From contig PSPG01000010.1 of NCBI GenBank assembly GCA_003193925.1, positions 1 through 59,705 of the forward strand: 59,705 nt of DNA, written 5' to 3'. This DNA comes from Candidatus Thalassarchaeum betae. Lineage in GTDB: Archaea; Thermoplasmatota; Poseidoniia; Poseidoniales; Thalassarchaeaceae. Shown in pieces: positions 1 to 59,705 of this stretch (position 1 is the first letter of the stretch; each line of letters opens with the position of its first letter). A program made the translations under genes and the position numbers. The notes beneath the pieces were generated by a model. The model searched no databases. It was not told where the DNA came from and was given only the letters and a program-made list of their open reading frames with translations.

Positions 1-7
1 TCGGCAT
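1..7 (-). CDS. Start of a further leftward gene, cut by the window edge
   Basis: An ATG on the minus strand at 7-5 lies 3 nt beyond the stop codon (13-11) of the 46-residue membrane protein gene, in the arrangement TGA-GTG-ATG. Only two codons (Met-Pro) are in the window, so no function can be given. The tight spacing suggests a third gene in the same leftward operon. Confidence 0.3.
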
Positions 8-10
8 CAC

Positions 11-151
11 TCAGTCCCCCAACACGAGATACACGCAGACTCCGACTATGATGAGGATGATGACGGGCCAGTAGCTGGTGCCGACGGGTCCCTCCCCCAA
101 ATCCTCAATTTGAAAGAACCATTCGAAAATCTTTCTCGCCCTTCCAGCCAT
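11..151 (-). CDS. 46-residue single-span membrane protein
   Basis: The ATG at 151-149 comes 3 nt after the stop of the HNH gene and opens a 46-codon frame ending in TGA at 13-11. The product has a short basic and aromatic N-terminus (MAGRARKIFEWFF), an acidic linker, and one strongly hydrophobic segment at about residues 29-44 (WPVIILIIVGVCVYLV), ending in LGD. This looks like a small inner-membrane protein with its N-terminus probably inside. I do not recognise a family. Being packed between an HNH gene and another start codon argues that it is real. Holin-like or membrane-anchor roles are only guesses. Confidence 0.5.
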   Translation of the reverse strand: MAGRARKIFEWFFQIEDLGEGPVGTSYWPVIILIIVGVCVYLVLGD

Positions 152-154
152 CGC

Positions 155-748
155 TCAGTCCCCCTCACAGTCGGTCCATTTATGTCCCGGCTTCCCACAT
201 CGCCCGCACTCGTACTTCTGCTGTCGGTGCGCCCCGCAGTAGTCGGTTCCACCAAGCTTCGAAGCGTGGCATCTCCCCGCTCGGCCCTTCCTCCGTTTGG
301 TGAAGCCCTCGCAACGCTTCTTCTGCCCCGGCCCCCACTTCTTCAGCAACCTCTCCCGCTTCTGCTTCCATGTCACCCGGGTGCGCTTGGCGGTCTTCGC
401 TCCCCGCGACATGATCCATCGGCGGAACAGGTGCGAGTCTGTCAGCTCGTGACACCTCGGGCAGACCTCCGCGATGTTCCCGGGGTTCTTCGAAGCGACG
501 AGTCGGCGGAGGCGGTCATCATCGAGGTTCTCGATCTGAACCGACCCGTCGATCCCGACAGCGAGCCACTCGAGGTCATCCCTCTCGAGCCTGTCGATCT
601 TGGCTTGGCTGATGAGGTGGTGCATCTCGGAGTCCGGGATCGCCCGAGTGCAGATCCGGCAGGTGTTCGAAGGCTCGACTCCGTATCTTGCGGCCATGTG
701 TCCGATGAGAAGAAATCGGGGGTGTTTAGACTTCGAGGAACTCACCAT
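155..748 (-). CDS. HNH-type protein with two extra zinc motifs, including a CCHC knuckle
   Basis: This 197-residue protein combines three putative metal sites. An HNH-like module holds C30-X2-C33, H43-H44, N91 and C96-X2-C99-H100. A middle motif has C146, C160, C171 and H174, in the style of the small C-x-x-TK-G-x-C...YC-x-x-H motifs common in phage proteins. A C-terminal zinc knuckle is C181-X2-C184-X4-H189-X4-C194. A basic linker (about 118-150) would suit nucleic-acid binding. The ATG at 748 is preferred over the GTG at 757 because GAGGTG lies 6 nt before it. It heads a leftward cluster next to tRNA-Glu, so a mobile-element origin is plausible. Cleavage activity is inferred from the fold, not shown. 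Confidence 0.65.
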   Translation of the reverse strand: MVSSSKSKHPRFLLIGHMAARYGVEPSNTCRICTRAIPDSEMHHLISQAKIDRLERDDLEWLAVGIDGSVQIENLDDDRLRRLVASKNPGNIAEVCPRCHELTDSHLFRRWIMSRGAKTAKRTRVTWKQKRERLLKKWGPGQKKRCEGFTKRRKGRAGRCHASKLGGTDYCGAHRQQKYECGRCGKPGHKWTDCEGD

Positions 749-759
749 TATGTTCACCT

Positions 760-859
760 CTATGGGAAAGTATTCTCGAGGATTCAGCAGGTCGCCCGCA
801 GTCCCTCGGTTTCGCTCTCTTCACCATATACGGCAACTTCCGGAAGAAAGGTGCTCGTG
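760..859. other. Possible attachment-side junction at the tRNA-Glu 3' end
   Basis: The 3' half of tRNA-Glu and the roughly 90 nt that follow separate core genes from the HNH cluster. The tRNA is intact, as expected if an integrating element restores the 3' end. No second copy of the 3' sequence can be seen because the window ends at 1. This is a hypothesis from position only. Confidence 0.25.
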
Positions 860-926
860 CCGGGATTTGAACCCGGGTCGCCGCCTCGAAAGGGCGGCAT
901 GATGGACCGAACTACACCACACAAGC
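852..926 (-). tRNA. tRNA-Glu (anticodon UUC)
   Basis: The acceptor arms GCTTGTG (926-920) and CACGAGC (859-853) pair with one G-U. The anticodon loop CTTTCGA sits on a CCGCC/GGCGG stem and gives UUC. The T arm carries GGTTCAAATCC. The discriminator is A at 852 and the genome continues CCT, so the terminal CCA is not encoded. The 3' end points toward the HNH cluster, the usual side for tRNA-targeted integration. Confidence 0.93.
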
Positions 927-965: not shown

Positions 966-3944
966 TCACGGCGGGTTGCCCGTACTCCCAGTGGTGATGG
1001 TCACCGACTCTGGGGTGCCGTCCTGGTTGGAATCGATGGTGATCACGGTCACGATGAGCCCCTGCACGGTGTTGGTGACGTAGTCGACGTGGAAGGCGAT
1101 CCAGGTGTTGTTGGTGTGGTAGGCGTGGCCCTGTGGGTTGATGTTCCACTCGAATACTCTGTGCGAGAGGTAGGCCTCCTGCAGCACCTCGATGTTGCCG
1201 CCGGACGACAGGGAGAGGTTCCTCGCGTGCCAGATGTTGGAGTTGACCGCGAAGGTCACATTGCCGTCCGCGTTGTCGTCCCTCGCCGCCATGTAGTGAC
1301 GGTGGAACACCCTGCGCTCGAGGAAGCCGTCGTGGTCGTAGTCGGCCGCCAGCCAGGATCTGCTCAGGTAGTCGTAGGTGTCCTGGCTGCCGTCTGAGTT
1401 GTTGTCCCATGAACTCAGGCCGATGACGACCACGCGCATGGCGTGCAGGTTGTGGTTCGAGTCGCGCCAGATCTCCAGCGAATGCGTGGACACCGAATGA
1501 TGTGACCATCCGTGGGCGTGCTGGTCAAGTTGAGTGGTCTCAGTGACCCTCCTGAAGATGTGCTCCTCATGACCGTCCTCGTCGGCATCGGACCATGTCA
1601 AGGTGGCGGTGTATGACTCGTGCTGCTCGAGATATGGGTCGAAGTCCCAGTCGGTCGCGTTGGCCATGTGGATGATGCGCTGCTTCCACTCAGGGATGCC
1701 GTCGGCGTCATCGTCGACCGTTCGAGTCAGGGCGAAGCGGTGGATGTGGTACTCGACCATGCCCCAGTCCCAATGCTGGTTCCAGCCGCGCATCCGAGCA
1801 GTGTAGTCGAGGTCGCCGTCGTGGTCAGTGTCGACCTTCAGGACCCCAGCCCGCCAAGTCCACTGCAGCTCTATGACGCCGTTCGAGTCGTTGTCGAACT
1901 GAACGGTGTTCTGGTGAAGGGCCCTGATCACATCGACGCTGCCGTCTTGGTTGGTGTCCTTTCTAACGACCGCGCGCAGGTTGTCGCGGTGGCGGTCGAC
2001 GTTGCCGTCCTCGGTGGGGTCCCAGACCCAAGAGGTGTGGTCTATGGCCATCCAGAGCTCGGGGGTGCCGTCGTCATTGGCGTCAATCCTCAGTATCAGC
2101 CGAGTGTGCGAGAAGTACGCGGTGAGCACCGCGCCTATGCCTTGGTCGACCATCCGCTGTTGGCGGTTCAAGACCACTCGGCGCTCGAGGTTGCCGTCTT
2201 GGTCGGCGTCGGTGCGGGCGTGCACGAAGAGGTGGATGTTGACGTCCTCGTAGGTGCCGTTGTCCCAGGTCCAGACGGTTCTGGTGAGCACATCGTGGCG
2301 CTCTGGAATTCCATCAGAGTTCTGATCGACGAGGTCGAGCCCCCTGAAGCGTGTGAAGAAGAAATCGTCGTGGCCGTCCCCGTCGCGGTCTTGGGAGCAA
2401 TGTAGGGTGCGAATCAGGATGATTCGCTCTGGTCCGGGGATGCCGTCCGAGTCGAACCAGAAGACTCCCACTGAGCGATGACAGAGGGTCTCGGCGACGC
2501 CGTCGCCGTCCCAGTCCTCCCAGAAGGAGTCGTTCCACCATGTGGCTGTGACCTGTGAGATGGAGCGACTGTAGGTCTGTTGGTCCAGCGAGTCATCGCT
2601 GACATCGCCCCACGCGTCGTCGAAAATCGGGTTGACAACTTCCGCGTCAGCTGCATTGGCGGGGGGAAGGGGCTCGAGCTCACTCTCGGAGGGGCCCTCA
2701 TCGGACTCGACTACTGAATCCTCGTGCAGAAGCGAGTTCTGCGGCATCTGGTCGGTCTCCTCCTCGTCGCCGACCTCATCGCGCACCGACTGCTCGTCGG
2801 TGGCGACCCAGTCGTCGACCTCCTGGTCGTCGTCATAGTAGCCGTCCCCGTCCGGATCGAAGTCGGACTGCCAGTCGTAATCCGCCTCCTGCTGGGCCTC
2901 AGTGACCTCATCGACCGTGCCGTCCCCGTCCGAGTCGAGTTGCTCCTCGACCTCGGTCTCGAGCTGCTCCTCGGCCTCGGCCTCGAGCTGCTCCTGCAGC
3001 TGTGCTGCCTCGAGGTCGTCGGCCACGGAGACCACCTCGACGTGGAAGACGCGCTCAGTGGTGATACCGGTCGGGCCGGTCGCGGTCACGCGAACCACGA
3101 ACACGTCCTCCTCAGTGTACTGGTGGGATTCCTCGGTGAACGCCGGGTCGACCATTGAACCGTCACCCCATTCGATGCTGACCGAGACGGGACCGAGTGG
3201 GTCCTCGGTGCTGGTGGTGATGGTCAGCTGCCCGGCCAGATTGAGGTGTATGCGGCCCTGAGGCGAAGGGTTGGTGGATACTGTGAGCGAGGGCGCGTCG
3301 GCGTGCTCGATTCTGATTGCCTCCTGGGCGTTGGCCAAGAATCCCGAGGTGTCAGTGGCTGAGACGCGAACGGCATAGGTACCGGGCTCGCCCCAGATGT
3401 GCTGCCCGGAGAGGTCCCTCTGGGTGGTGCCATCGGAGAAGTCGACTTCGACGACCAGGTCATCGCCGTCAGGGTCCGAGGCATCTACCGACCACGCCAC
3501 GGGGACGCCTGCAATCCCCTCGTCGGGAAGCTCTAGGGAGACCGTCGGAGCTCGGTTGGGCTCCTGCAGAGTGAAGATGACCGCAGACACCCCTGTCACG
3601 CCCATCGAGTCTGTTATCTCGGCCTCGATGGTGTGCGTGCCGACGGAGAGGAAACCAGCGTCATAGACGAGGCTGGGCGAGGTCTGAACCAGTACGCCGT
3701 CGAGGCGCCAGTTCACGATGTATGGGCCTGTGCCCTCCTCGATCACGGCGTTGGCGACAATCAGGTCGTTGGCTGTGGTCGGCGAGCCCTCGAGTTGGAC
3801 ATCGGCTGTGACCACCGAGGGCTCGGGCTGCTCGACTATCTCGTCCGTCGCTCCGAGGCATCCCGAACCCACCATCAGGGCCACTAGGAGGAGTCCGGTA
3901 TGGATTCGGTGTCGGGCGATTCTGTCGTAAGTCATCTCGGTCAT
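966..3944 (-). CDS. Secreted PKD-domain lipoprotein with about 18 calcium-type DxDxDG loops
   Basis: The N-terminus is a lipoprotein signal (hydrophobic stretch, then lipobox VGSGCLG, lipidated Cys at about residue 29), so the mature protein should sit on the outer face of the membrane. Three PKD or Ig-like domains follow (about 40-300; motifs SDPDGDD, EWGDGS). Next comes an acidic Glu/Gln-rich coiled stretch, then about 18 loops of the DSDGDG/DANDDGTPE kind, as in thrombospondin-3 or EF-hand-like calcium sites, spaced roughly 30-45 residues apart with aromatic beta segments between. The ATG at 3944 is chosen because a TATA-like TTTAAGG lies about 30 nt upstream, giving a leaderless start; a GTG at 3968 is the longer alternative. 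It lies just downstream of the membrane-tethered regulator gene. Substrate or ligand is unknown. Confidence 0.8.
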   Translation of the reverse strand: MTEMTYDRIARHRIHTGLLLVALMVGSGCLGATDEIVEQPEPSVVTADVQLEGSPTTANDLIVANAVIEEGTGPYIVNWRLDGVLVQTSPSLVYDAGFLSVGTHTIEAEITDSMGVTGVSAVIFTLQEPNRAPTVSLELPDEGIAGVPVAWSVDASDPDGDDLVVEVDFSDGTTQRDLSGQHIWGEPGTYAVRVSATDTSGFLANAQEAIRIEHADAPSLTVSTNPSPQGRIHLNLAGQLTITTSTEDPLGPVSVSIEWGDGSMVDPAFTEESHQYTEEDVFVVRVTATGPTGITTERVFHVEVVSVADDLEAAQLQEQLEAEAEEQLETEVEEQLDSDGDGTVDEVTEAQQEADYDWQSDFDPDGDGYYDDDQEVDDWVATDEQSVRDEVGDEEETDQMPQNSLLHEDSVVESDEGPSESELEPLPPANAADAEVVNPIFDDAWGDVSDDSLDQQTYSRSISQVTATWWNDSFWEDWDGDGVAETLCHRSVGVFWFDSDGIPGPERIILIRTLHCSQDRDGDGHDDFFFTRFRGLDLVDQNSDGIPERHDVLTRTVWTWDNGTYEDVNIHLFVHARTDADQDGNLERRVVLNRQQRMVDQGIGAVLTAYFSHTRLILRIDANDDGTPELWMAIDHTSWVWDPTEDGNVDRHRDNLRAVVRKDTNQDGSVDVIRALHQNTVQFDNDSNGVIELQWTWRAGVLKVDTDHDGDLDYTARMRGWNQHWDWGMVEYHIHRFALTRTVDDDADGIPEWKQRIIHMANATDWDFDPYLEQHESYTATLTWSDADEDGHEEHIFRRVTETTQLDQHAHGWSHHSVSTHSLEIWRDSNHNLHAMRVVVIGLSSWDNNSDGSQDTYDYLSRSWLAADYDHDGFLERRVFHRHYMAARDDNADGNVTFAVNSNIWHARNLSLSSGGNIEVLQEAYLSHRVFEWNINPQGHAYHTNNTWIAFHVDYVTNTVQGLIVTVITIDSNQDGTPESVTITTGSTGNPP

Positions 3945-3967
3945 TGGCCGTAGGGCGTCCTTTACCA

Positions 3968-3976
3968 CCTTAAAGG
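3968..3976 (-). promoter_or_regulatory. TATA-like box for the PKD lipoprotein gene
   Basis: CCTTTAAGG on the minus strand, read 3976 to 3968, lies about 24-32 nt before the ATG at 3944. That is the spacing of an archaeal TATA box for a leaderless transcript. Confidence 0.4.
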
Positions 3977-3996
3977 AAAGTGGGTCATTGGATTTG

Positions 3997-4992
3997 TCAA
4001 GGCCTCGAAGAGACGGGTTCGACGAGAGCCGTCCACAGTCTCCTGCCTTCCTCAGTGAGCACTCGATTGGTTCGCAGTCCGCTCCTTCTCCGGGTGATTA
4101 GGCCCTGGGACTCGAGACGCTTCAGATGGTGGCTTACCAACTGCTGGCTCGTATCCAATCGGAATGCCAACTCCCTTTGCGTCGGAGAGGGCTGGCCCTC
4201 CTCCTGCTCGACTACCGACCGCAGCACCATCAGGGCCACGTCGCTGAGTTGATTGGCATCGACCGGACGAGGTAGATTGGAGAGTTCGGCCGCACGGTCG
4301 ACGGCTGAGGTATAGTAGCGCAGCAGACGCCCGTCGCGCCTGCACCAGACGCGCCCCTCGTGCTCGAGGATCCTCAGGTGGTGCACGGCCTGGTGGTTAC
4401 CCAAATTCAGAGCGCGGATGATGCCAGACAGGTGGCAGCCCGGGTGAGCAGTGAGGAAACCCTCGAGTCGGCCGCGCTGGTAGGTCCCTGCGAGTGTGCC
4501 TGTGCCCTCAGTGACCCGAAGTTGCGAGAAGCGGCCCATCGACCGGGAGATCTTGGCCCTCGTCGGCTCATCGCCGGCTGAAACCAGAGCAAGTGCGAGG
4601 AAAGTCACAGCGATGAAGGTAGAAGCGAAGGACATCGCGGGCAGAGAGAGGACGAATTGGGAGTCTTCAGTCTGCTGTCCGAGATCAGCGGGGGACTGCC
4701 CCTCTGATTCAGCCACGAACCACATATCCGCTATGGACCACATTCCTGACAGAACGTCAGTCAGTTCCACACCCACGGCGCGGCCCTCCATCGGGCTAAG
4801 GAACAGGCCGGGCTCGGGTTGGGGCTCGTGCAGCAGTCCCTGAGCGTCCTCGAGCATCCAGACTCCGGGCGAGGTGCGCACCCAGGTTGCCTCCTGGTCA
4901 GCCGCTACAGAGGGGGCCGCCAAGATGACCAGAATCGCCAGCGTAAGGCACAGTGAGGCAGCCTGTCGCGCATGCGCTGGCGCCCTCTCCAT
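3997..4992 (-). CDS. Membrane-tethered transcription regulator with two winged helices
   Basis: The 331-residue product has an N-terminal signal peptide (about 11-31), an external domain of about 85 residues with several Trp, one transmembrane segment (about 118-139), and a cytoplasmic part with two winged-helix domains (about 175-232 and 250-322; the second, MarR/ArsR-like, reads TQRELAFRLDTSQQLVSHHL). This layout is that of a one-component sensor-regulator that binds DNA while anchored in the membrane. It lies 52 nt upstream of the calcium-loop lipoprotein gene on the same strand, suggesting a shared surface-related regulon. A TATA-like sequence about 28 nt upstream supports this start. The target genes are unknown. 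Confidence 0.8.
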   Translation of the reverse strand: MERAPAHARQAASLCLTLAILVILAAPSVAADQEATWVRTSPGVWMLEDAQGLLHEPQPEPGLFLSPMEGRAVGVELTDVLSGMWSIADMWFVAESEGQSPADLGQQTEDSQFVLSLPAMSFASTFIAVTFLALALVSAGDEPTRAKISRSMGRFSQLRVTEGTGTLAGTYQRGRLEGFLTAHPGCHLSGIIRALNLGNHQAVHHLRILEHEGRVWCRRDGRLLRYYTSAVDRAAELSNLPRPVDANQLSDVALMVLRSVVEQEEGQPSPTQRELAFRLDTSQQLVSHHLKRLESQGLITRRRSGLRTNRVLTEEGRRLWTALVEPVSSRP

Positions 4993-5015
4993 GCGATATC
5001 GGAGATGCTTGGATG

Positions 5016-5024
5016 GGTTAAGGG
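5016..5024 (-). promoter_or_regulatory. TATA-like box overlapping the DedA stop codon
   Basis: The minus-strand sequence CCTTAACC contains the TAA stop of the upstream DedA-like gene and sits 24-32 nt before the ATG at 4992. The spacing fits a leaderless promoter of the regulator gene, placed inside the end of its neighbour. Confidence 0.35.
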
Positions 5025-5659
5025 TCGTGGGTCGTCGTGTTTGTCGGACCTGAGTCCTCCCCTGGAATCAGTCCGGACCACCAACGGTTGAGCGGGATGA
5101 AGAGCATCAGGGCGAGCAGTCCCCCGGTCAGCCATGCCCAGGGGTTCCCCAGAAGACCCAGGAACTCCTCACCCCATAATCCCAGCACTAGGCCTTCCAT
5201 GCCGAATCTGAATCCACGGCCCACGAGACCTGCCGCGACGAACAGCCTGAGGTCCATCCTCCCGGCACCGGCAGTCCAGGCCATGGCCACATAGGGGATT
5301 GGTGAGATAGCTGCGAGGAACACACCTGCAGATCCATATCTGAGAGTCATTGACTCCAGTCTGGAGACGGTGGTGCCGCTGACTATTCGCTCGAAGGCCG
5401 GTCTGCCCGCGTGCGCGCCGAAGGCGTATCCCAACATCGATCCGAATACGCTCGAGATGGTCGCAGTGAGAACTATTGCCAGTATTGCCAGAAATCCCTG
5501 TGCCCCCAGGACAAGGGGCAGCACGAGTAGGTCTGGTGGGACGAACGGCAGAGCAGCCTCGATTGCTGCCACCACCGCCAGGCCGAGCAGGCCGAAGCCC
5601 TCGGCCCAGCCGATAATCGAGTCGGTGATGCCCTCGAACACGTACCTTCGTCCCTCCAT
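5018..5659 (-). CDS. DedA/VTT-family membrane protein
   Basis: The 213-residue protein is mostly hydrophobic. It has an N-terminal segment with ALPFVPPDLLVLPLVL, a Gly-rich re-entrant stretch (SSVFGSMLGYAFGAHAGRP) and the later GSAGVFLAAISPIPYVAMAWTAG, which match the VTT/SNARE-associated (YqaA/DedA) family. The PIP-containing loop is the usual conserved element. These proteins are proposed lipid scramblases or flippases in bacteria and eukaryotes; the archaeal role is uncertain. The gene is divergent from nob1 and lies upstream of the regulator gene. Confidence 0.75.
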   Translation of the reverse strand: MEGRRYVFEGITDSIIGWAEGFGLLGLAVVAAIEAALPFVPPDLLVLPLVLGAQGFLAILAIVLTATISSVFGSMLGYAFGAHAGRPAFERIVSGTTVSRLESMTLRYGSAGVFLAAISPIPYVAMAWTAGAGRMDLRLFVAAGLVGRGFRFGMEGLVLGLWGEEFLGLLGNPWAWLTGGLLALMLFIPLNRWWSGLIPGEDSGPTNTTTHDP

Positions 5660-5740: not shown

Positions 5741-6241
5741 ATGGCTGCGGGTGAGGTCCTCGACACCGCTGCGCTCATCGCGTGGCCGATGGAGAGGATG
5801 CGGGGCAGTCTCGTCGTGCCCTCGCAGAGAGCGGAGTTGGGCCGCATCTCGCCCGAGAGGGAGATGCTGCTTGATTCCATCGGCCTTGAATGGGCGACTC
5901 CTGGAGGTGCTGCACTCGCACAGGCCAGCGAACTAGCGACCCGGACGGGGGACATGTCTGGCCTGTCGCCTGTCGACCTCGAGTTACTCGCGCTCTCGCT
6001 CGAGAGGAGCGCGACCCTCGTGACGGACGACTACAGGCTGCAGAACCTGTGTGAGTTGGGAGGCATCCGATGGCTCTCGGTCACCATGGAGGGAATTCGG
6101 GCCCTGTGGACATGGGAGTTGCGCTGCCCCGGCTGTGGAGCAGTTCAGCCCCCTCCAGACGCACCTCAGGCTAGGCGAGGAGGACTAGGGAGCTGCCCGG
6201 ATTGCGGAACTGCGCTGAGACTCAGGCGCGGCAGGGAGTGA
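5741..6241 (+). CDS. nob1: Nob1-like rRNA maturation endonuclease (PIN domain plus zinc ribbon)
   Basis: The protein opens with VLDTAALIAWP, the first PIN-domain acidic motif. It continues with LSPVDLELLALSLERSATLVTDDYRLQNL, containing further conserved acids, and ends in a zinc ribbon CPGCG...CPDCG. This order is typical of Nob1, which cuts the 3' end of pre-16S rRNA in the small-subunit precursor. The ATG at 5741 puts the PIN motif close to the N-terminus; an in-frame ATG at 5666 would add 25 residues without resemblance to the family. The gene converges on tatA with 1 nt between them. Confidence 0.85.
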   Translation: MAAGEVLDTAALIAWPMERMRGSLVVPSQRAELGRISPEREMLLDSIGLEWATPGGAALAQASELATRTGDMSGLSPVDLELLALSLERSATLVTDDYRLQNLCELGGIRWLSVTMEGIRALWTWELRCPGCGAVQPPPDAPQARRGGLGSCPDCGTALRLRRGRE

Positions 6242-6242
6242 C

Positions 6243-6452
6243 TCACTCCCTCTCGTTGGTGACTTCCTCTGTCATCCCGCCGCGATCCATGTCCTGCTCA
6301 GCAGCAGATGGCGCCATGCCCTCTTGCAGGCCCTGCTGGAACTCGCCCTTTGCGCGGCCCGCGCCGCGAGCCAGTTCGGGTATCTTCTTCGCCCCGAACA
6401 GGAAGATCGCTATTCCGACGAGGATTACTAACTCTACAGTGCCCAAGGCCAT
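6243..6452 (-). CDS. tatA: Twin-arginine translocase subunit TatA
   Basis: The 69-residue protein has one N-terminal transmembrane helix (VELVILVGIAIFLFG), the hinge motif FGAKKIPELARG, an amphipathic helix and a short acidic tail. This is the standard TatA/Hcf106 layout. It forms the pore-lining part of the Sec-independent export system for folded proteins. No tatC lies in the window. Confidence 0.92.
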   Translation of the reverse strand: MALGTVELVILVGIAIFLFGAKKIPELARGAGRAKGEFQQGLQEGMAPSAAEQDMDRGGMTEEVTNERE

Positions 6453-6507
6453 GTTATCGGCACTAGGTGAGAGCGTTCTCGTTCAAATGCTTCGGCCGAA
6501 TCGACTC

Positions 6508-6765
6508 TCATCCACCTGAAATCGGGGGGAGGAAGGCAACTTCGGACGAATCCCTCAGAGGGGCGTCGAGAGGAGCGCCGATCTGCCCGTCAATCGCAAC
6601 CCTGAGCCCCGAATTGAGAAGATCGGACAGGTCGAAGCGCTCAATCAGCTGAGTGCCTGTGGTCCCGTGCTCCAGCGCTACCTCGATCTCACGTTCGCCC
6701 AGCCTCTCGGCCAAGGGCCCGAAGAACAGCATCCTGACCTTCACAGCCTTGCCTTGGCCGACCAT
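6508..6765 (-). CDS. MoaD/ThiS-like beta-grasp sulfur carrier
   Basis: The 85-residue protein contains RMLFFGPLAERLGEREIEV and ends in PPISGG. The C-terminal Gly-Gly is the site that is adenylated and thiocarboxylated in MoaD, the small subunit of molybdopterin synthase. The FGPLAERLG segment resembles MoaD more than ThiS. A role as an archaeal ubiquitin-like modifier (SAMP) is also possible, since some archaeal MoaD proteins serve both purposes. Confidence 0.8.
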   Translation of the reverse strand: MVGQGKAVKVRMLFFGPLAERLGEREIEVALEHGTTGTQLIERFDLSDLLNSGLRVAIDGQIGAPLDAPLRDSSEVAFLPPISGG

Positions 6766-6844
6766 GCTGCGGCGAGTTCCCTGACAGCCATCAACCCATC
6801 TCCCTCGCAGGGACTATACCTCGTACACGCCGCGGCGAGGTTGC

Positions 6845-7537
6845 ATGAGCGAGGTCAAGGCGGTCGTCTTAGACTGCGACGGGGTCCTCACAGACAACGG
6901 CTCCTCGTGGCAGAACATCCACGAACACTTCGGTACCGAGAACCTAGAGACCCTCGAGCGCTTTCTCAATCACGAGATCAGCGATGACGAGTTCATGGCT
7001 GACGACATCCGTCTGTGGACTGAGGTCCAGCCCAAGATCCACCGAAACGACATCATACGCTGCTACTCTGGTATCGCGCTGATGCCCGGGGCCCGCGAGT
7101 TGGTCCACGAGTTGCAGTCCAGAGGAGTCTTCGTGACAATCGTGTCCGCTGGTGTGGACGTTTTCGTGGGTGCCATTGCGGGCATGCTCAAAGTAGACGA
7201 CTGGGCCGCCAACGGATTCGACTGGGACGAAGAGGGCTGGTTGCGTGGGCCTGCGCCCACGCGGGTCAACTCCCATGAGAAGGGGCTGATGGTCGAGAAG
7301 CTGGCGAGGATCAGGAAGTTGGATCCCGAGAGCATCGTCTCAGTCGGTGATTCCAGCACCGACCTCTCGATGATGATTCCCGGCTCGGGCTTCATCGGTT
7401 TCAACCCGGCCAGACAGAGGGCGGTCGATGCGTTCGAGGCAGCGGGAGTCCCCATCGTCCGAGAGGGTGACCTGCGTGCACTCTGGCCGCATATCTTCGA
7501 CGGTGAGCGGTTTCCCGACTCAGGCGAAGGGGATTGA
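6845..7537 (+). CDS. HAD-family phosphatase, SerB-like
   Basis: The 230-residue protein starts with the HAD nucleophile motif VVLDCDGVLTDNG (DxDx(V/T)). It has the second motif in TIVSAGVDVF, the Lys region near HEKGLMVEKL, and the acidic motif VSVGDSSTDLSMM. The order and cap position resemble phosphoserine phosphatase and related type IB HAD enzymes. Because serC and a SerK-like gene are elsewhere in the window, serine metabolism is a reasonable guess, but substrates in this family cannot be read from sequence. Its 3' end overlaps the PolD small-subunit gene by 18 nt tail to tail. Confidence 0.75.
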   Translation: MSEVKAVVLDCDGVLTDNGSSWQNIHEHFGTENLETLERFLNHEISDDEFMADDIRLWTEVQPKIHRNDIIRCYSGIALMPGARELVHELQSRGVFVTIVSAGVDVFVGAIAGMLKVDDWAANGFDWDEEGWLRGPAPTRVNSHEKGLMVEKLARIRKLDPESIVSVGDSSTDLSMMIPGSGFIGFNPARQRAVDAFEAAGVPIVREGDLRALWPHIFDGERFPDSGEGD

Positions 7538-9142
7538 AGCCGTCGCGTGAGTGTGCAGGTTGACTATAGTCAGGATGCAGGGCTTGGGCTGGAAGCCCAG
7601 CATGCGCTGGTAGTCGGTCTGGTCCTGCCAGGTAGAACTGTGTACCATCGTCGTGCCCTTGTAGTTGCCAGCGTAGTGACCGTGGACGTGGCCAGTGACG
7701 AATATATCGGGCACGGTCGAGATGACCATCCGGTCCTCAGGCTCTGGTGACAGTGGGGTCTTGCCTCCCCACGACGGTGCGAGGTGCCTGCGCTCCAGCA
7801 TCGACCTCATTGCCAGTTCGGGGGCCGAGTAGGTAACAGAGCGCAGCCCAGCGACGAAGTCGTCAATGCTCTTGCCGTGGTAGGATAGGATGCGGACGCC
7901 GTGCAGGCTGAAGTCGCAGGGGTTTCCTACGAACAAGGCGTTCGAGTAGTCCTGCTGGACCTCGGGGTCCAATGCTGGCTGGGGCTCCGCTGGACGGACT
8001 GCGTCGTGGTTGCCGGGCAGAATCATCAGGTCGACCCAATCGGGAAGGCCCTCGAGCAGCCTAGCTAATTCCCCATACTGGTTGAACAGGTCGGTGATGG
8101 CCAGATGGCGTTCCTGCCCGGGATATATCCCCACCCCGTCAACGCCGTCACCACTCAGTACGAAGTACTTCACAGTCCGAGCCAGGGGGTCGGTCCTGAA
8201 CCACTCGATCATCTTCTCCCATTGCGGAGCTAGGAAGGTCTTGCTACCGACGTGGACATCGGACAAGAAGGCCGCCGAGACCGCCTCGTCCTCGCTGGCA
8301 GTGGCCTTGGAGTGCCGGCCCAAGGGAGGCATGTGAATGTCGCTGATCCAGAACAGCGGGCTCCTCTCCCCAATCAGGAAGTACCCGCTGACTCCGACTG
8401 TGTCGTCGTTCATCAAGCCGTCCAAAGCAGGATGGAGGTTCGAGGCTCCGGACGGGGCCTTGAGGGAGCAGCGGATCTGCATCGTCTCGTCCTCGATGAC
8501 GAAGTTGAGGTTGCCGGCCCTCGACCATCTCGACTCGCTCACGAGGCCCACCAAAGTGACCTCGTACTCGCTGCTGGAGTAGCGCTGCCTGTTGCGCCAC
8601 GCCTCGGAGTTGCTGATAGGACGGCGCGGCAGGGCTCGACCGGCAATCATCATCTGGCGAATCTGGCGCAAGCGATCGGAGAAGCAAGACTGCATATCGT
8701 GCATCTTCCCCTCTGTAGTCGAGTGCCCGGTGATGTCGAAGTGGATCTCGATTTCGGCGTCGACGTCCCTAGCTTCCATCGGGAAGTCGTCGAGGCTGTA
8801 CTGCGCCAACCCGTGTCTGCGTGGTGCGGGGGTATAGTCAGGAGTGGCCACCGGAGCCAGTGTGCGGCCGATGGGATAGTGGCTCTCTGGGTCGGCCAAA
8901 GTGGCCTGTGCGGTTCTGATGGCAACTGGCGGAGCCTCGATGGTCTGCTCGGTCGGAACCAGTGTCAGCATCTCGTCGATTGCCCTCTCGCTGAGCATCA
9001 CGACGTTGGAACTCTGAGCCGCCTCGATCAGCGGCGCTAGGTCCTGCAGGCTCTGGACCTTCTCCTGGGCGGCCCTGCCGATTACCAGCAGTCCGGCGGC
9101 AGCGAGCGTTCGCTGCCGTTCTGCCCAATCCTCGCCAGCCAT
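7520..9142 (-). CDS. polB: DNA polymerase D small subunit (DP1), exonuclease subunit
   Basis: The 540-residue protein has an OB-fold region in the middle (about 195-280) and a C-terminal calcineurin-like phosphoesterase domain. All the metal motifs are visible: SDVHVGSKTF, GDGVDGVG, LPGNHDAVRPAEPQPA, SYHG and VTGHVHGHY. This is the Mre11-like 3'-5' proofreading exonuclease subunit of the archaeal replicative polymerase PolD. The intact metal ligands suggest it is active. No intein is seen. The large subunit is not in the window. Confidence 0.95.
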   Translation of the reverse strand: MAGEDWAERQRTLAAAGLLVIGRAAQEKVQSLQDLAPLIEAAQSSNVVMLSERAIDEMLTLVPTEQTIEAPPVAIRTAQATLADPESHYPIGRTLAPVATPDYTPAPRRHGLAQYSLDDFPMEARDVDAEIEIHFDITGHSTTEGKMHDMQSCFSDRLRQIRQMMIAGRALPRRPISNSEAWRNRQRYSSSEYEVTLVGLVSESRWSRAGNLNFVIEDETMQIRCSLKAPSGASNLHPALDGLMNDDTVGVSGYFLIGERSPLFWISDIHMPPLGRHSKATASEDEAVSAAFLSDVHVGSKTFLAPQWEKMIEWFRTDPLARTVKYFVLSGDGVDGVGIYPGQERHLAITDLFNQYGELARLLEGLPDWVDLMILPGNHDAVRPAEPQPALDPEVQQDYSNALFVGNPCDFSLHGVRILSYHGKSIDDFVAGLRSVTYSAPELAMRSMLERRHLAPSWGGKTPLSPEPEDRMVISTVPDIFVTGHVHGHYAGNYKGTTMVHSSTWQDQTDYQRMLGFQPKPCILTIVNLHTHATASIPFA

Positions 9143-58122: not shown

Positions 58123-59532
58123 ATGAGGGACAGCAGCGGATGGAGGCCTACGGCCTACCGCTCCCACACCATCGGGCAGGTCGTTGCCAACGGCGCGGAC
58201 ATGGTCGGCTCTGAGGTCACCCTAGCGGGTTACGCCGAGACAGTGCGCGGGCGGGGCGCGATCTGCTTCCTGATGCTGCGCGATGGCACCGGCCGTATCC
58301 AGGCCTTCCTGAAGAAGGACAACATGGGCGAGGCGCTGTTCGACGCCATCCAGTCGGCCACCCGAGAGTCGACCGTCCAAGTCACTGGGACGGTAGCCCA
58401 GAAGCGCCCCCCCGAGGTCGCCGAGGGCGAGCCGTCCCCACCCCCGGAGTACGAGGTCAACGTTAGCACTGGCGCCATCCTAGCCGATGCCGCAGCCCCC
58501 CTGCCGGTGGGGGTCATCGACGAGGTCAACGTCGGCCTCGATGTGCGTCTAGACAATCGTCACCTCGACCTGCGGCGCGCGCATGTGAACGCCATGTTCC
58601 AGCTGCGCGCCAAGGTCCTGCAGTACGGCCGCGACCACCTGATTTCCGAGGGCTTCCAGGAGATCAACACCCCGAAGATCATCGTCGCTGCCGCCGAAGG
58701 CGGCACCAACCTGTTCTCGCTGCAGTACTTTGAGACCCCAGCATACCTCTCGCAGAGCCCGCAGCTGTACAAGCAGCTGGCAGTACTCGGAGGCCTCGAG
58801 CGCGTCTTCGAGATCGGTCCGGCCTTCCGTGCCGAGAAGCACGACACCTATCGTCACCTCAACGAGTTCATCTCCTTCGACATCGAGGGCGCGTGGATGG
58901 ACGACGAGGACGTGATGGGCGTTCTGGAGAGGATGATGTGCCACATCTGGAGCCAGGTCGCTGCCAACGACCTGGACCTGATTGACGCAGTCAACGTGTT
59001 CAGGGCGAGTCAGGGGCAGGATCCCGTGAGCGTGGAGGTCCCGAGCTTGCCCTTCCCCCGCATCCCCTACTGTGATGCCATCGATATCGTCCAGGCCGAG
59101 GGAGGCGAGATCGAGTGGGGCGAAGACATCGAAAGCCATCACTGCGACATCATCGCGACCCAATACCCGGGCTTCCACTTCATCTCGCGCTGGCCTATGT
59201 CGATGAAGCCGTTCTACATCCACCACAAGGAGGAGGAGAGGGGCTCGTCTGGCGGCCAGCTCAGCCGCGGCTTCGACCTGAACTACGGTCGTGACGAGAT
59301 GACCAGCGGCGGCCAGCGCGAGCACCGAGTGGATGTGCTAGAGCAGAATCTGCGCGATATGGGCCTCGAGCCTGCCGACTTCACCTTCTACACGGACGGC
59401 TTCCGCTACGGTGCGCCGCCGCACGCCGGCTGGGGGCTGGGTGTCGCCCGCTTGCTGATGGTGCTGACCGGGGCGAGCAATGTCCGCGAAGTCGTGCTTT
59501 TCCCACGTGATCGGTCCCGAGTGACCCCCTGA
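58123..59532 (+). CDS. aspS: Aspartyl-tRNA synthetase
   Basis: The 469-residue class IIb synthetase has an N-terminal anticodon-binding OB fold (VTLAGYAETVRGRGAICFLML), motif 2 RVFEIGPAFRAEKHDTYRHLNEF and motif 3 GWGLGVARLLMVLTGA. The flipping-loop region EGGTNLFSLQYF and SQSPQLYKQ fit AspRS of the archaeal/eukaryotic type rather than AsnRS. The position matching the discrimination Trp of Thermococcus AspRS reads Glu in AGYAE, so tRNA-Asn charging as well cannot be excluded. Confidence 0.9.
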   Translation: MRDSSGWRPTAYRSHTIGQVVANGADMVGSEVTLAGYAETVRGRGAICFLMLRDGTGRIQAFLKKDNMGEALFDAIQSATRESTVQVTGTVAQKRPPEVAEGEPSPPPEYEVNVSTGAILADAAAPLPVGVIDEVNVGLDVRLDNRHLDLRRAHVNAMFQLRAKVLQYGRDHLISEGFQEINTPKIIVAAAEGGTNLFSLQYFETPAYLSQSPQLYKQLAVLGGLERVFEIGPAFRAEKHDTYRHLNEFISFDIEGAWMDDEDVMGVLERMMCHIWSQVAANDLDLIDAVNVFRASQGQDPVSVEVPSLPFPRIPYCDAIDIVQAEGGEIEWGEDIESHHCDIIATQYPGFHFISRWPMSMKPFYIHHKEEERGSSGGQLSRGFDLNYGRDEMTSGGQREHRVDVLEQNLRDMGLEPADFTFYTDGFRYGAPPHAGWGLGVARLLMVLTGASNVREVVLFPRDRSRVTP

Positions 59533-59593
59533 GCTTCCGGACTCACGAGGATTCACCGACCTTAGACTGGCCTTTGAATATCAGCGACCGAGG

Positions 59594-59609: not shown

Positions 59610-59648
59610 GCAGGGATTCAAATATGGGGCGCATGGCGCTCGCATTCT

Positions 59649-59705
59649 ATGGACCTTGGTACGCTGGTACTCGCAATCATCCCACTGCTGGTAGTCGTCG
59701 ACCCG
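59649..59705 (+). CDS. Start of a membrane protein gene cut by the right edge, possibly MarC-like
   Basis: An ATG at 59649 opens a frame reading MDLGTLVLAIIPLLVVVDP to the end of the window. A hydrophobic first helix ending in VVDP recalls MarC-family proteins (usually IVDPLG). Only 19 residues are visible, so the call is tentative. A TATA-like box lies about 50 nt upstream. Confidence 0.4.
   Translation, partial: MDLGTLVLAIIPLLVVVDP

Follow-up and report, generated by a model that had tools for sequence, protein, structure and literature searches.

A probable mobile element integrated at the 3' end of tRNA-Glu(UUC) in a Poseidoniales archaeon

The abundant Marine Group II archaea have yet to be cultured, and to our knowledge little is known of their mobile elements. 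In this study we focus on a 59,705-nucleotide stretch of Candidatus Thalassarchaeum betae (the window, G000:C6:1-59705), at the left end of which a tight cluster of small genes lies against the 3' end of a tRNA-Glu(UUC) gene. Is this cluster one end of an integrated mobile element, and if so, where is the other end and what kind of element is it? Position 1 of the window is the first base of contig C6 in a metagenome-assembled genome (MAG) of 1.48 Mb in 23 contigs, 91.8% complete; the window begins inside the integrated element, which continues leftward beyond the contig start.

The tRNA-Glu(UUC) gene, located by ARAGORN at positions 850-926 on the reverse strand, is intact, with its 3' end facing the cluster as the initial annotation had it. 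The first gene inside the boundary (155-757, reverse strand) is transcribed away from the tRNA and encodes a 200-residue HNH protein with a CxxC-HH-N-CxxCH core and a Cys/His-rich C-terminus, matching the Pfam HNH family PF01844 at 22.5 bits for a cut-off of 21.4. A 46-residue single-span membrane protein (11-151, reverse strand; peak Kyte-Doolittle value 2.47) without a family match starts 3 nt past the HNH stop, and 3 nt past its own stop lies a further ATG, at positions 7-5, which opens a third reading frame (1-7, reverse strand) running off the contig after ATG CCG A. The leftward cluster is thus present as first described, down to the 3-nt spacings.

Comparison with related genomes places a sharp boundary at the tRNA. 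Relatives are collinear with the window only from positions 847-850 rightwards and show no homology at this place to positions 1-849, the tRNA-side end of the element, so that the predicted drop in relatedness coincides with the tRNA 3' end. The G+C content of 1-849 (59.1%, against 62.4 +/- 2.2% in equal-size blocks) is not decisive on a foreign origin. Of 12 further genomes in the genus, 11 lack the cluster and have the tRNA directly abutting a SLOG gene of the YspA family; in the twelfth, G009, the assembly splits within the tRNA, between contigs C93 and C34. The gene order that follows in the genus is SLOG, SufS, SufE, SufT-like, FolD and PheS, where SLOG was assigned by scan and the other names are putative, given by sequence reading. 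The same empty arrangement of tRNA-Glu and SLOG is found in much of the family. The situation that the initial annotation named as contrary to an insertion, with the cluster beside tRNA-Glu in all relatives and no repeat of the tRNA 3' end, did not occur. On the other side of the tRNA, where everything had been read as chromosome, the DNA is indeed host flank, but it is not uniformly stable: the stretch from about 970 to 5000 is present in G005, G006 and G011 and absent here from G001, G003, G004, G009 and G010, in which homology to the window restarts near 5000-5160. A 1000-residue surface-type protein encoded at 966-3968 (reverse strand) is present in some relatives only.

The far junction was found on another contig. 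In G000 the SLOG block lies on C5, not beside tRNA-Glu(UUC) on C6, and there this gene, the neighbour of the tRNA in relatives, is followed by a second copy of the tRNA 3' end, as had been anticipated. This attachment core, GGTGCTCGTGCCGGGA, comprises 16 nt (window 850-865, reverse strand) and recurs at G000:C5:63433-63448 (L056:8434-8449) in the order GTCGACTGATGAT-GGTGCTCGTGCCGGGA-GATGAGCACGTTTCC, with the contig ending 129 nt past the core. The direct repeat is exact at both junctions, each of which then continues into unrelated DNA. Taken together, the tail copy on C5 and the intact tRNA on C6 indicate that the host join was opened exactly at the tRNA end. The element DNA recovered amounts to 978 bp, made up of window positions 1-849 on the tRNA side and the last 129 nt of C5 at the far end, with the interior unassembled. 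The putative attP of the circular form would read CTTCCGGAAGAAAGGTGCTCGTGCCGGGAGATGAGCACG. As a separate observation, G000 carries an additional 2-kb surface-protein-like gene between SufS and SLOG (L056 about 5900-7930), which is absent in G005.

The C6 start overlaps no other contig of the bin, while window positions 59615-59705 overlap the end of C13 by 91 nt, which makes C6 and C13 adjacent; the missing interior is therefore probably on unbinned contigs. The terminal stretch of C5 matches C20:1523-1637, a region with a scaffold gap, at 93% identity, and this shared repeat explains the break of C5. Apart from it, neither the C5 end nor the C6 end overlaps another contig in a way that would bridge the missing interior.

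Both junctions, the 16-nt repeat and the empty sites in relatives bear out an integrated mobile element ending at tRNA-Glu, and we consider it very probable that positions 1-849 are one end of it. Elements that target tRNA genes use a tyrosine recombinase to join attP to attB. Here a site-specific recombinase, most likely of the tyrosine type, would join the 16-bp core of a circular element with the tRNA-Glu 3' end. The tRNA would be kept whole because the element brings the same 16 bp, and the displaced tail would end up beside SLOG, which used to adjoin the tRNA. A conserved unit of about 45 nt with inverted repeats is found at the far end, and the genes recovered are small ones, for an HNH protein and single-span membrane proteins. 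The two junctions, the core, the empty sites and the repeated use of tRNA-Glu are observed directly; the enzyme, together with excision, transfer and what the cargo does, is inferred.

The far-end unit follows the core on C5, contains CGTTTCC-TCC-GGAAACG and, in a search of 318 Poseidoniales genomes, occurs five times, in four genomes from three genera. Two copies (G000 C5 and G303:C4) lie directly after SLOG at the tRNA-Glu(UUC) site. A third, on G309:C17, adjoins GuaB, which neighbours tRNA-Glu(CUC) in G000 and at seven loci in six relatives; in G000 the last 25 nt are shared by both tRNA-Glu genes. At these three occupied sites host DNA switches to element DNA after the same base, and tRNA-Glu has been used repeatedly, in both of its genes. 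A fourth copy (G303:C15), whose core measures 15 nt, is not flanked by a recognised tRNA. The fifth, in G228, is degraded, with two core changes; it lies past a gene for an FMN reductase and is separated by 16.4 kb from an intact tRNA-Glu(UUC). This interval is contiguous, although it includes a run of N. It encodes a sulfatase-like protein, a DUF899 protein, a mini-protein cassette and a 3,897-residue reading frame, with no integrase seen among its reading frames, and may be one insertion or several; in other species of the G228 genus, SLOG and the tRNA are separated by a different gene, of flavodoxin fold. Three unit copies have a contig end 0.6-1.3 kb away, which leaves those elements likewise unassembled. 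In GTDB r220 the exact unit was found in contigs of two MAGs only ('Euryarchaeota archaeon' records); IMG/VR has no exact copy, and no excised or circular form was observed. We rejected a mere dispersed chromosomal repeat, since the first part of the unit is single-copy in G000 and two of the five places come right after SLOG and one at GuaB, both neighbours of tRNA-Glu. A palindrome, CTTCCGGAAG, at window positions 837-846, 3 nt from the core, contains the word TCCGGAA, which appears again in the far-end unit on C5; TCCGGAA/TTCCGGA is found at four places in the window. This may be a recombinase arm site.

What the element carries was examined through its HNH protein. A distant homologue in another genus (G257) shares 34% identity over residues 9-180 with the HNH residues kept, and the gene is thus likely real. 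Further relatives are found in G185 (beside a serine recombinase gene), G247 and G006. A single-protein search of IMG/VR, GTDB contigs and phage and plasmid records returned no relatives, an alignment search recovered three distant viral HNH genes, and PHROGs and NCBIfam gave no match. An AlphaFold model built from four sequences reached a pLDDT of 40 and was set aside. The suggestion that the cluster might be a defence unit found no support: the best PADLOC E-value was 0.051 (DRT-associated model RTas337), and the 46-residue protein had no match. Our likeliest guess is that the HNH protein is a nuclease that helps to process the DNA of the element itself or to compete with other elements.

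No integrase is encoded in the 978 bp recovered, the interior being missing from the assembly, and no integrase fragments of the SSV-type split abut the att copies in window 1-849 or at the C5 end. The sole PF00589 protein of the G000 assembly (C4:23551, 378 residues) is Xer-like and of a type present in every relative searched. Additional, more divergent integrases were found in three of nine genomes searched, G308, G309 and G257, with genes overlapping tRNA-Arg, tRNA-Asn, and tRNA-Pro and tRNA-Ala, respectively. In G308 the gene belongs to a closed 6.6-kb element at tRNA-Arg(UCG) (G308:C15:9702-16380; L157, L178), bounded by 39-nt repeats; its 449-residue divergent tyrosine integrase overlaps the tRNA with its 3' end, and an HNH gene stands at the opposite boundary. 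The other integrase genes (L179 8265-9680, L180 9297-10712 and L180 17795-18973) likewise overlap the tRNA-Asn, tRNA-Pro and tRNA-Ala genes with their 3' ends, and no convincing second tRNA copy was found in the DNA around them.

These findings bear on a narrower version of the main reading, to which we give a little less than an even chance: the tRNA-Glu element would lack an integrase of its own, being either a small non-autonomous satellite or a decayed remnant, and would depend on a helper recombinase or the host Xer to move it in trans. An integrase-bearing element does exist in the family, no integrase was seen in the G228 island, and mini-protein genes are common to G000 copies and G228 with 91-100% DNA identity. 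Moreover, G000 harbours a complete 1,632-bp element at tRNA-Gly(GCC) on C21 (L164 2179-3837), flanked by 27-nt direct repeats, which has small reading frames only and no visible integrase. The closest relative, G005, is collinear on both flanks with a single 27-nt copy, and this insertion is therefore exact. Against this version, the interior of the tRNA-Glu element may hold an integrase, and remnants made by deletion would look alike. By analogy, the tRNA-Gly element makes an integrase-free small element at tRNA-Glu plausible. Its single-span mini-protein gene is 90.6% identical in DNA to a gene on C20, and aligning the element with a C18 stretch revealed no real similarity along its length. 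G009, with two tRNA-Gly tail copies around a scaffold gap (L194 1182-1577), is probably a second species with an occupied tRNA-Gly.

Tentatively, and as less likely than not, we propose that Poseidoniales carry an undescribed family of very small integrase-less elements, the tRNA-Glu element among them, which would use the 3' ends of tRNAs (Glu UUC, Glu CUC and Gly) as targets, with a borrowed recombinase, and exchange tiny single-span membrane protein genes across genera.

Two further kinds of short sequence were observed. A cassette for a 31-residue single-span protein (L106 3830-4085, L066 1552-1735) is 98-100% identical in DNA between two genera. A 38-bp repeat, CTCGTGAGTCCGGAAGCTCAGGGGTTTAGATCCACGAG, often right past a gene end, is found on C13 (three copies), C18 (two) and C20 (two) of G000, with a partial copy at window positions 59526-59549; exact or near copies occur in G228, G308 and G033, and in no other member of the G000 genus. 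These repeats prompted us to consider an integron-like cassette system, but no recombinase other than the Xer-like one was found, and Poseidoniales are not mentioned in the archaeal integron paper.

It is improbable that the tRNA-Glu element is of the Charybdis type. Charybdis are circular marine elements of about 4.6 kb, some of which integrate beside tRNAs in Poseidoniales (PMC12324425), and the host order, the tRNA-adjacent integration and the small genes agree. However, the hallmark Gp3 (double Greek-key) was not seen in the 978 bp recovered, with the interior missing; the accessory genes named for Charybdis include no HNH, integrated Charybdis are reported with an integrase, and the exact far-end unit is absent from IMG/VR, where Charybdis are abundant. 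An assembly or binning artefact, in which two chimeric contig ends mimic an insertion, is very unlikely. Both stretches do lie at contig ends of an incomplete MAG, one of them in the repeat shared with C20, but the breakpoints on the two contigs coincide at one tRNA boundary, and other MAGs also have this far-end unit beside neighbours of tRNA-Glu. That these are ordinary genes of the chromosome, which came to lie downstream of tRNA-Glu through non-specific rearrangement, is hardly credible: the locus is variable in the family, and genus g4 has another small gene between SLOG and the tRNA, but neither an exact 16-nt repeat nor a shared far-end unit would be expected, and the reading is already contradicted.

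Defined attachment sites at tRNA-Glu and tRNA-Gly, with empty and occupied alleles, are now available, and the specific far-end sequence can be used to screen metagenomes for circular forms and helper integrases. Assemblies break inside such tRNA-bounded elements, which are therefore easily lost from MAGs.

An integrative element at a tRNA 3' end is of a kind already known; the cargo (the HNH protein and the 46-residue membrane protein) and the element family are undescribed. With archaeal tRNA-targeted integrative elements, that is, proviruses and integrative plasmids with tyrosine integrases, the tRNA-Glu element shares the tRNA 3' end as target, the restored tRNA, the direct repeat at the far end and the sporadic presence; it differs in its short core of 16 bp, in having no integrase or integrase fragment at the recovered ends and in a cargo almost without family matches. 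Charybdis (PMC12324425) resemble it in Poseidoniales hosts, tRNA-adjacent integration and small genes, whereas the tRNA-Glu element has HNH as its first gene. The viral HNH genes, on marine contigs with a clamp loader and DNA polymerase (L073-L075), are 33-34% identical over the HNH core but have other N- and C-termini and a different neighbourhood. The 6.6-kb tRNA-Arg element of G308 belongs to the same archaeal family and also has an HNH gene as the first gene inside one att boundary, read inward; unlike the tRNA-Glu element, it has a 449-residue integrase, a 39-nt core and an HNH protein of another subfamily, placed at the tRNA-distal end.
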